Positions 31,873 to 37,150 of a DNA stretch of 37,575 bases are shown piece after piece. The notes beneath the pieces are model-generated. The model saw only the letters and a program-made list of their open reading frames with translations. It made no database searches and was not told the origin of the DNA. The position numbers and the translations under genes are program-made. How positions within the stretch are numbered: position 1 is the stretch's first letter; each line of letters starts with the position of its first letter. Source of the stretch: Bacteroidota bacterium (GTDB lineage: Bacteria; Bacteroidota; Bacteroidia; M30B66); assembly GCA_947459155.1 (NCBI GenBank), contig CANHCM010000003.1, positions 1 to 37,575 of the forward strand, given 5' to 3'.

Positions 31873-33806
<1,934 letters not shown>

Positions 33807-33850
33807 ATTACAAGTGTTTTGGGTTAGAATTGAAGATTTCGCCCGCCGCT

Positions 33851-33866
33851 TGCGAAGGATGTGCCA
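33851..33866 (-). promoter_or_regulatory. Sigma-54-like -24/-12 promoter upstream of groESL
   Basis: Minus strand TGGCACATCCTTCGCA; GG-N10-GC spacing exact; compare TGGCACG-N4-TTGCA. No TAnnTTTG seen in the interval. Confidence 0.4.
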
Positions 33867-33897
33867 AGTGGCCAGGGCAAGGAGAAGTTGGAAATTT

Positions 33898-33914
33898 TGA
33901 CAGCGGTTCTGCCA
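33898..33914. promoter_or_regulatory. Imperfect palindrome TGACAG-CGGTT-CTGCCA upstream of groESL
   Basis: 6-5-6 inverted repeat with one mismatch; related in sequence to the palindrome at 33942. Confidence 0.4.
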
Positions 33915-33941
33915 AAAAACAGCAAAACGCGCCGGGCTGTC

Positions 33942-33954
33942 TGTCAGCCTGACA
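33942..33954. promoter_or_regulatory. Perfect palindrome TGTCAG-C-CTGACA upstream of groESL
   Basis: 6-1-6 perfect inverted repeat; centre 42 bp from the centre of the 33898-33914 palindrome. Confidence 0.5.
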
Positions 33955-33986
33955 CGTTTTGAATACTTTGACGGTTTTGTATTGAC

Positions 33987-34340
33987 TTATTGCGCAGGAG
34001 CCGCAGGAGCCGGAGCTGGTGCTGGCGTTGGAGCAGGCTTGGCCGCTGGTGCCGGAGCTGCAGTGCCTCCTTCCTCCGCTTTACGCGTAGAAATGGTTTC
34101 GCGGCTGGAATCTTCGGGTGTCATTGTGCTGGCCGTTGAAGCCAAACACAACACAATGAGGGCTGCCGCTAAAACCCAGGTTGACTTTTCCAAAAAGTCA
34201 GCAGTCTTTCTCACACCCATCACTTGGTTGGAGGAAGCAAAGGTGGATGACAAGCCGCCACCCTTTGAGTTCTGTACCAGAACAATCAAGATCAGTAGCG
34301 CACAAACAACTAAAATGAGAATCGAAAAGATTAAAGACAT
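33987..34340 (-). CDS. secG: Preprotein translocase subunit SecG with Ala/Pro-rich C-terminal tail
   Basis: LIFSILILVVCALLILIVLVQNSKGGGLSSTFASSNQVMGVRKTADFLEKSTWVLAAALIVL; tail APAPAAKPAPTPAPAPAPAAPAQ. Confidence 0.9.
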   Translation of the reverse strand: MSLIFSILILVVCALLILIVLVQNSKGGGLSSTFASSNQVMGVRKTADFLEKSTWVLAAALIVLCLASTASTMTPEDSSRETISTRKAEEGGTAAPAPAAKPAPTPAPAPAPAAPAQ

Positions 34341-34345
34341 GGGAC

Positions 34346-35395
34346 TTAGCTCGGTTTTACAATTTTTTCAACAAGGGCGGCAAAGTAAGCACTTTTTTCA
34401 GGATATAACAAACTTAATTTATGATAGATGCGTATCGCACGGGCAGTATCGCCCTGACTTAAATACACTTTAGCCAAAGTTTCTGTAACAAGATCGTCGC
34501 GGTCTTCAACGCTTTTCCGAGCCATTTCAATCGGATTGAAAAAGCTGGCTTTTGGCGCAGTTCGCTCCTCCATTTGTACGTTCAACAATCCCTTTTCCAC
34601 AGAAGGCTTGGTTTGGCCTGTTTGAGCCGTCCCGGCTTGAGTCGCCTTTAACCATTCTGTAAAGCGTCGTGGTTCTTCAGCAGGCTTTTTTTCTACAAAC
34701 TCAGTGAGCGCAGGGGCTTTGTTTTCGGGGCTTTCGGCGCTCTCTTTTTCCGTTTCACTTTTCCCCAGTTCGGGGTAGGCCAAAATTTGCGATAGAATAT
34801 CATTCGGAGCCTCGATGGCCTGATCGGGATTCCAGTTAATTCGAGGCTTTCGCTGGGTAGGAGCGTTTGTTAATGGTGTTTGTTCAGCTTGAGCAGGCTT
34901 TGCGTTTTCAGGGTATGCCACACTCGGTGCCGACAATGCCACAGGCGCTTCATTGGTGGCCAGCGCTTCAGGGCTTTGTGGTGATGACATTACGGTTTCC
35001 TGAAGCTCCGGCTTTATCTGCTCTACTACGATATCTTCAGATTTGTGCCGGTCTGCCGACGTTTGCACCGAATCGGTTTCGGGTACGCTCTGGTCATCCG
35101 CCGTTGAGGCGGCCAAAGGCTCTTCGATAACCAATGAAGACGTGGCTTTTTGCATTTCGCCGGCCTCGCGTTCCACAAAAAGATAAAGCGCCTTTCGGTC
35201 TGAGCAATGAACCGCGGCTTGTTTCAATTGCTCCTGGAAGCGATAATCGCCGTGCTCACGAAGCTTCCGAAGCAGGGCAAAACGGCCGGCCTCAAAATAT
35301 GGGTAGCGCAACAATACAGCTTCGCCATCTTCGGGTTTTAAAGCCGATTCGTGGTTTAAATCCAGCAACATGGCCACGATGGAGTCCGCGTTCAT
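34346..35395 (-). CDS. Conserved Bacteroidota hypothetical protein with C-terminal TPR-like motif
   Basis: LLRYPYFEAGRFALLRKLREHGDYRFQEQLKQAAVHCSDRKALYLFVE...; C-terminal ETLAKVYLSQGDTARAIRIYHKLSLLYPEKSAYFAALVEKI. Confidence 0.7.
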   Translation of the reverse strand: MNADSIVAMLLDLNHESALKPEDGEAVLLRYPYFEAGRFALLRKLREHGDYRFQEQLKQAAVHCSDRKALYLFVEREAGEMQKATSSLVIEEPLAASTADDQSVPETDSVQTSADRHKSEDIVVEQIKPELQETVMSSPQSPEALATNEAPVALSAPSVAYPENAKPAQAEQTPLTNAPTQRKPRINWNPDQAIEAPNDILSQILAYPELGKSETEKESAESPENKAPALTEFVEKKPAEEPRRFTEWLKATQAGTAQTGQTKPSVEKGLLNVQMEERTAPKASFFNPIEMARKSVEDRDDLVTETLAKVYLSQGDTARAIRIYHKLSLLYPEKSAYFAALVEKIVKPS

Positions 35396-35901
35396 TACCA
35401 GTTAATCAAGGCCTTGTTAAAAATATCCTGCGAAAGCTGTTGGTTGATCTCCCGAATCAATTCGGTTTCTACCGATGTGAGGTTGCTCGAGGACGGAAAG
35501 TCAGCAAATCGGCTAAAGCTGGTTTCGAAGTCTTTTTCCGCATCCAAAGTATTGGTAAACTGAACCATTACCGTGATGGTTAGGCGGTTCGATTGTGCCC
35601 CTCCGGTGCTTACGCCTACCGGATTTACCCGATAATCGGTAATGGAGCCCTCAATGCGCAAATCGCCACCCTGAGGCACTAAGGTTAACCGACTTTGGGT
35701 TTGAAAAAAGTTTCGCAAATCTTCGGTAAACGCCTGGCTGAGTGTTGGTTGCACAAGGCTTGAGTTGTTCTGAAAAAAAGCAATGCTGATGGTTTTGGCA
35801 TTTCCGGCATCTCCGGCATTCAATGAAATACGGCAGGCTCCCAGCAATAAAAGCATGCAGAGCATTAGAATACCAGGCCATTGTCGGAGAAGAAATGCCA
35901 T
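35395..35901 (-). CDS. lptE: LptE-like LPS-assembly lipoprotein
   Basis: Lipobox LLLGACRISLN; ISIAFFQNNSSLVQPTLSQAFTEDLRNFFQTQSRLTLV...DLRIEGSITDYRVNPV; position between the sigma-54 activator and the TPR/secG genes. Confidence 0.82.
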   Translation of the reverse strand: MAFLLRQWPGILMLCMLLLLGACRISLNAGDAGNAKTISIAFFQNNSSLVQPTLSQAFTEDLRNFFQTQSRLTLVPQGGDLRIEGSITDYRVNPVGVSTGGAQSNRLTITVMVQFTNTLDAEKDFETSFSRFADFPSSSNLTSVETELIREINQQLSQDIFNKALINW

Positions 35902-35905
35902 CAAC

Positions 35906-37150
35906 CTACAAGTTTATACCGTATTCTTTGATTTTGCGATACAATGTGCGCTCAGAAATGCCCAATTCGCGGGAAGCATTTTTCCGGCGCCCCCGATATT
36001 TTTCAAGGGCCTTAATAATGAGCTCTTTTTCCCGGTCCTCTAAAGAAAGACTCTCTTCTTCCAGTTCCTCGTGCTCGGTGATTGGCGAAGAAACAGGGCT
36101 CACAAATGAAACGGGCTGCGATACGGGACTTACCACCGGCTGAGCGACGAAAGAACTAGGCTGCACTTCTTGCTGAAGCTGAGAAAAAAACTGTGCGTGA
36201 TTCTCCCGGATGTGCATGTCGGAGCTTTGTCCGCCAATGACCTCGGCCAAAATTTTCTTCACTTCTACCATGTCGCGCTTCATGTCGAACAACACTTTGT
36301 AAAGGATTTCCCGTTCCGAAAGTTCCGATTGCTGATCGGGTCGGCTGAGGGCCGGCACCATACTGCTTCCGTGTCCGGGCAGGTAACGGCTAAGCACTTC
36401 AGCTCCAATCATTCGTTCGTTTTCTATGATGGAAATCTGTTCGGTAACGTTTTTAAGTTGACGTACATTGCCCGGCCAGCGGTAGCTCAACAACAACTGA
36501 GTCGCCGATTCATCCAGTCGGATGGCCGGCATGCGGTATTTTTCAGCAAAGTCGGAGGCGAATTTCCGAAACAGCAGCAAGATGTCGTTGCCCCGTTCTC
36601 TCAAAGCCGGGATTTGAATCGGTACGGTGTTGAGTCGGTAATAGAGGTCCTCGCGAAATTTCCCTTTTTCGATGGCATTCGGAATATTCACATTGGTGGC
36701 CGCCACGATGCGCACATCGGTTTTTTGTTGTTTCGATGACCCTACACGAAGGAATTCTCCGGTTTCTAAAACCCGAAGCAGGCGCACCTGTGTTTGCAAA
36801 GGCAGTTCGGCGACCTCATCTAAAAAGATGGTTCCCCCGTTTACCACTTCGAAATATCCTTTTCGGGCCTCATTGGCCCCCGTAAACGAGCCTTTTTCGT
36901 GTCCGAAAAGCTCAGAATCAATTGTTCCTTCGGGGATGGCCCCACAGTTAACCGCGATAAAGCTTCCATGCTTGCGGGCCGAATAGCTGTGGATGAGCTT
37001 AGAAAACACCTCTTTTCCGGTTCCGCTTTCACCGGTGATGAGCACGCTCAAATCGGTTCCGGCCACTCTCCACGCGGTATCGATGGCTCGGTCGAGCAAT
37101 GGCGCATTACCAATGATGCCGAATCTGTTTTTGACTTCGTTCAGGTTCAT
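35906..37150 (-). CDS. Sigma-54-interacting AAA+ transcriptional activator (PspF-like architecture, Fis-type HTH)
   Basis: ITGESGTGKEVFSKLIH Walker A, ELFGHEKGSFTGA (GAFTGA-loop variant), GTIFLDEVAELP, RWPGNVRQLKN, C-terminal NASRELGISERTLYRKIKEYGI; no N-terminal receiver/GAF domain. Confidence 0.93.
   Translation of the reverse strand: MNLNEVKNRFGIIGNAPLLDRAIDTAWRVAGTDLSVLITGESGTGKEVFSKLIHSYSARKHGSFIAVNCGAIPEGTIDSELFGHEKGSFTGANEARKGYFEVVNGGTIFLDEVAELPLQTQVRLLRVLETGEFLRVGSSKQQKTDVRIVAATNVNIPNAIEKGKFREDLYYRLNTVPIQIPALRERGNDILLLFRKFASDFAEKYRMPAIRLDESATQLLLSYRWPGNVRQLKNVTEQISIIENERMIGAEVLSRYLPGHGSSMVPALSRPDQQSELSEREILYKVLFDMKRDMVEVKKILAEVIGGQSSDMHIRENHAQFFSQLQQEVQPSSFVAQPVVSPVSQPVSFVSPVSSPITEHEELEEESLSLEDREKELIIKALEKYRGRRKNASRELGISERTLYRKIKEYGINL

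Follow-up and report, generated by a model that had tools for sequence, protein, structure and literature searches.

Chaperonin Locus and Its Predicted Promoter

The window, the whole 37,575-nucleotide stretch of DNA that we analyzed, belongs to a draft Bacteroidota genome of 2.8 Mb and 86.6% completeness (G000). Its minus strand carries, in this order, a TRAM-domain gene that appears to be the end of a miaB-like gene, a gene for a sigma-54 activator of the enhancer-binding protein (EBP) type, lptE, a gene for a 349-aa protein, secG, groES, and groEL (Table 1). The groES gene is the only one found in the genome; a gap of 20 bp separates it from groEL, and the two are probably cotranscribed.

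Table 1. Features of the groESL locus, in the order of minus-strand reading
Feature	Position	Strand	Evidence or remark
Sigma-54 enhancer-binding protein (EBP), 414 aa, proposed activator	35906..37150	-	Pfam domains
lptE, between EBP and groES	35395..35904	-	PF04390, E = 3.9e-20
secG, upstream neighbor of groES	33987..34340	-	PF03840, E = 7.3e-21
Hairpin after secG, probable intrinsic terminator	33923..33961	-	RNA fold and T-run
Distal repeat TGTCAGGCTGACA	33942..33954	-	Center at about -108; within 5' arm of secG terminator hairpin
Proximal candidate activator site TTTTGGCAGAACCGCTGTCAAAA	33895..33917	-	Center at about -66; conserved in relatives
Predicted sigma-54 (-24/-12) promoter TGGCACATCCTTCGCA	33851..33866	-	Sequence and conservation
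Predicted groES leader, 34 nt	33807..33840	-	+1 at 33840, from box position
groES (Cpn10, 92 aa)	33528..33806	-	PF00166, E = 3.1e-34
groEL (Cpn60, 544 aa)	31873..33507	-	PF00118, E = 7.3e-82

Upstream of groES, the first-pass annotation had described a sigma-54-like promoter, and its placing of the box TGGCACATCCTTCGCA was right to the base: it matches the GG-N10-GC spacing exactly and departs from the motif at one base, having TCGC where TTGC is expected. The start near 33840 and the leader of about 34 nt that it gave are also the values predicted here from the box position. An extended form of the box, TGGCAYNNNNNTYGCWA, occurs a single time in the 2.8-Mb assembly, at groES. The annotation had further seen neither CIRCE nor a TAnnTTTG box upstream of groESL, and our motif searches agreed: no CIRCE was returned anywhere in the window, and 33807–34000 holds no TAnnTTTG even with one mismatch allowed. 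Counting against the promoter reading, the -12 element in the window's family is TCGC and not TTGC. Matches to the box with at most two mismatches numbered 28 in the window, compared with 43 expected from shuffles in these single-sequence statistics; by sequence alone the box is no more than chance would give, whereas its position and conservation place it far beyond chance. Within the leaders themselves, a TTTAAC(A/C)CTAAA-like element is conserved about 15–35 nt before the groES ATG in many genomes (e.g., loci L012, L013, L031, and L035).

Conservation of the Box across Bacteroidia

We collected groES upstream regions from 90 Bacteroidia genomes representing about 58 families and found TGGCAY 40–95 bp before the groES ATG in 84 of them, in comparison with 3.1 (maximum 8) in dinucleotide shuffles. 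Two of the genomes outside the 84, G045 and G083, have the near-matches GGGCAT and TGGCAG, respectively, and all 10 members of the window's own family share TGGCA without variation. A second set, which overlaps the first in that a few of its loci come from genomes already sampled there, was collected via the activator and not via groES; groES was present in 58 of its 80 named contigs. In all 58 of these loci a box with its -12 G precedes groES; among 585 other genes that these loci contain, 3 have one. For the class as a whole the consensus reads TTGGCAYA-N5-[TC]G[AC]. Its -24 half is nearly invariant, and its -12 half is TG[AC] or CG, with TGA frequent in place of TGC, which also counts against the promoter reading; the window's family typically has TCGC(T/A)A. 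In two loci where no groES match was found (L220:8624 and L224:8610), the box TTTGGCACAAAATATGTCA and two CTGACA words lie directly before groEL. The motif upstream of groESL, whose presence in related genomes the first-pass annotation had left to be seen, thus turned out to be conserved nearly class-wide: almost all Bacteroidia share a putative sigma-54 start signal before the chaperonin genes.

These numbers bear on the simplest alternative, that the housekeeping sigma-A drives groESL and the GG-N10-GC match arose by chance. Although the box in the window sequence alone is no rarer than expected, the contrast between the groES loci and the control genes and the absence of a TAnnTTTG box within one mismatch upstream of groES argue against it, as does clpC, which in the same family has a clear TAnnTTTG promoter and no conserved box. 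We consider this explanation exceedingly improbable and retain sigma-54 as the reading for groESL.

Distribution of rpoN, HrcA, and RpoH

Absence of rpoN had been named by the first-pass annotation as evidence against sigma-54 control, and the gene is present in the window genome (G000:C108:4474; PF04552, E = 1.6e-51). It was found in 114 of 119 relatives; G025, G039, and G112, in which it was not found, all have the groES box, and the missing genes there are likely gaps in draft assemblies. The heat-shock regulators of other bacteria show a different distribution. HrcA, a repressor that acts at CIRCE, an inverted repeat near the start, is found in only two of the 119 genomes, G047 and G086, and the HrcA search returned none in the window genome. 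The same two genomes are the only sampled ones without the groES box, and both have CIRCE with one mismatch before groES (L069 and L125, respectively); rpoN is present in G086 and was not found in G047. HrcA/CIRCE has the same regulatory place at groES in these two genomes, and it is absent from the window genome. Sigma-32 was not found in six genomes tested: the best match to the RpoH equivalog model reached 165.7 bits, where the cut-off is 323.1, and is presumably the primary sigma factor.

A further natural experiment is offered by G033, a reduced genome of 0.49 Mb and 21.8% GC, to judge by its size probably of an endosymbiont, which retains rpoN. It holds a single EBP, which is orthologous to the activator encoded in the window (51% identity, residues 2–412), and apart from apparent rRNA repeats its intergenic boxes are just two, one lying 63 bp upstream of dnaK and the other 56 bp upstream of groES.

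The Linked EBP as Candidate Activator

The EBP encoded upstream of lptE consists of an AAA+ sigma-54 interaction domain (residues 12–179; PF00158, E = 3e-68), a lid (184–261), and a C-terminal Fis-type helix-turn-helix (HTH; 369–410; PF02954, E = 5.1e-15), with no N-terminal receiver domain. Orthologues were found in 114 of the 119 genomes. L001 and L002, the remaining two full EBPs of the window genome, combine a receiver with an AAA+ domain and have no HTH, so that among the three only the linked protein could bind the upstream repeats specifically; as the assembly is 86.6% complete, a further HTH-bearing EBP could be missing from it. Throughout the class the turn and recognition helix of the HTH, GISERTLYRKIK, hardly vary, as expected if the binding site is conserved. 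Between the AAA+ domain and the HTH lies a SERE-(I/L)LYK-LFDMK-(D)-LKK segment (36120–36400; residues about 262–345), a possible signal-input or dimerization element, which is still conserved in the reduced G033, diverged in family f17, and lost in family f51 (G068 and G104). CTGACA near the groES box is also absent in f51, where the box itself is kept and the recognition helix is unchanged despite both losses.

The suggestion of the first-pass annotation that this protein acts at groES gains support from its HTH, its linkage to the chaperonin genes, its retention in G033, and the upstream repeats, and the EBP is the best candidate activator of groESL. On the other hand, L001 and L002 both have intact sigma-54 interaction domains, and EBPs without an HTH can activate without specific DNA binding, as the Chlamydia and Helicobacter activators do. 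One of them could thus activate a sigma-54-driven groESL from solution, with the TGTCA repeats serving otherwise. G033, however, has neither HTH-less paralogue, yet it carries the boxes at groES and dnaK, and such an activator would explain neither the strong conservation of the repeats nor the presence of an HTH in the linked protein. We regard activation from solution as quite improbable and keep the linked EBP as the candidate.

Upstream Repeats and the secG Terminator

Two palindromes 42 bp apart, with centers about 66 and 108 bp before the predicted start, had been noted in the first-pass annotation. Both TGNCA repeats are present with that spacing, the proximal one being TGGCAGAACCGCTGTCA at 33914–33898. 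The distal repeat is part of a hairpin, probably the secG terminator, with a predicted fold of -30.7 kcal/mol (71 nt, z = -4.5) and a GUUUUUU run after it, and the distal palindrome may therefore serve twice. Relatives more often have a direct repeat TGTCAnnnTGTCA, usually TGTCAGnnTGTCA, at the same place, which makes the perfect distal palindrome of the window a local variant; TGTCA direct repeats of this form with an 8-bp period are the commonest arrangement (21 cases). L010–L013 and, less exactly, L017 share the proximal element, GNCAG-N5-CTGNCAAAA, which is the better candidate activator site. As the unit conserved in relatives is the CTGACA half-site with variable spacing, the 42-bp phasing holds for the window and was rejected as a general rule.

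CTGACA/TGTCAG occurs upstream of groES in 70 of 89 sequences, in comparison with 5.3 in shuffles, and TGACA in 89 of 89 (25.4 expected). The half-sites of relatives spread over about -40 to -130, and activator-binding sites of sigma-54 promoters are looked for about 80–150 bp upstream; the enriched words are candidate enhancer sites by position, and the CTGACA repeats are probably the activator's site. Partial use of the TGTCA repeats as terminator stems could inflate this enrichment. Taken further, the repeats could be mainly secG terminator stems, the sigma-54 box being real and its upstream activating sequence lying elsewhere. Such a role would agree with the position of the distal repeat within the terminator hairpin and with the TGTCAG...CTGACA hairpins followed by T-runs that many relatives have at the same place. 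What a terminator requires, however, is a stem and no particular word, and a direct repeat with an 8-bp period plays no part in a stem; moreover, CTGACA is found outside hairpins, beside half-sites of the AAAATTTGTC type, and before dnaK, where no such hairpin could be seen by eye. Repeats that are chiefly terminator stems are in our judgment unlikely, and we continue to treat them as activator sites.

Other Chaperone Genes

All seven genomes examined of the window's family have the box, of the GGTGGCATAATGATTGAAA type, together with TGTCA/TGACA half-sites before dnaK. The grpE boxes are of the TGGCACTAAGGTTGCAA type, and in the window genome grpE has the box TGGCAGGATGATTGCTT with TGTCATTCTGTC upstream. 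A heat-shock role of the circuit is suggested by these target genes. Of clpB and clpC, the two genes considered as further targets, clpC was rejected because of its TAnnTTTG promoter and the lack of a conserved box in the window's family. Besides that promoter, the clpC upstream regions of this family (L274 and relatives) contain a conserved CTGTTTG(A/T)AATTAACAA block about 100 bp away.

Discussion

It is highly likely, judged from the sequence comparisons, that groESL is transcribed by sigma-54 polymerase opened by the linked EBP bound at the TGTCA/CTGACA repeats, and that the same applies to dnaK and grpE. In the mechanism that we propose, sigma-54 RNA polymerase would wait at the box as a closed complex, and a hexamer of the activator would bind the repeats, about 45–130 bp upstream, via its Fis-type HTH. 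DNA looping would then bring the activator to the polymerase, with ATP hydrolysis opening the promoter, and the same pair would also drive dnaK and grpE. We infer binding, looping, activation, and leader length alike. In Bacteroidia this circuit would take the place of HrcA/CIRCE or sigma-32 of other bacteria. A wider claim seems to us reasonably likely: that this EBP without a receiver is a master activator dedicated to the Bacteroidia chaperone regulon (groESL, dnaK, and grpE), that it works with sigma-54 via TGTCA repeats, and that it replaces HrcA and sigma-32 in the role of core heat-shock regulator of the class.

The closest known systems each share part of this arrangement. In Bradyrhizobium, NifA and sigma-54 control groESL, one paralogue among several, as part of nitrogen-fixation control. 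The window locus resembles it in the sigma-54 box and the upstream EBP sites, which are candidate sites here; unlike it, the window groES is the only one found in its genome and belongs to a general chaperone regulon. PspF, the activator of the phage-shock genes, is likewise an AAA+ domain with a Fis-type HTH and no N-terminal regulatory domain, and is held by PspA. The window EBP has the same architecture and differs in its proposed chaperone targets and in the segment conserved between AAA+ and HTH. As for PspF, its lack of a receiver domain leads us to expect that it is controlled in trans or through its level.

The first-pass annotation knew of no RpoN control of groESL in this lineage, and here it was wrong, as two reports show. 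In the fish bacterium Flavobacterium psychrophilum, sigma-54 (SM4) starts were mapped in 2021 by 5'-end RNA-seq at groESL, dnaK, grpE-dnaJ, htpG, and lon (PMC9723704). That species shares with the window its phylum, gene set, -24/-12 element, and number of PF00158 proteins (three); in the accessible text of the study the authors did not single out an activator, and no upstream site is described (PMC9723704). Predicted sigma-54 regulons published in 2025 place GroES, GroEL, GrpE, DnaK, and DnaJ in a Bacteroidota chaperone cluster, based on PSSM prediction by COG and enriched in Flavobacteriia, Bacteroidia, and Cytophagia; unlike the present analysis, the accessible part of the report gives no activator or enhancer site (PMC12316311). 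For sigma-54 dependence of B. thetaiotaomicron GroES it cites its reference 80, which is listed as a Blattabacterium genome paper, and we therefore do not take the statement as experimental proof (PMC12316311). We found no published activator or binding site in the literature searched, which was mostly non-subscription; an earlier report is possible, and what appears to be new is that an activator and a site for it are named. The chaperonin being under sigma-54 control, as the first-pass annotation had proposed, is strongly supported by the conserved box, the presence of rpoN, the lack of HrcA and RpoH in the window genome, the exchange for HrcA/CIRCE in one genus, and the start mapping in F. 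psychrophilum.

Bacteroidia are a large class with gut, oral, soil, and aquatic bacteria among its members. As they generally lack HrcA and no sigma-32 turned up in the six genomes tested, the control of their main chaperones had been a puzzle. Use of sigma-54 was known from one species, and the comparison now indicates a neighboring gene as the switch. The loss of CTGACA and the linker segment in f51 with an unchanged recognition helix deserves follow-up. With a conserved activator adjoining groESL and a DNA site for it, the question becomes answerable by a single gene deletion, and, if true, the activator circuit would explain why a genome reduced to 0.49 Mb has retained rpoN.
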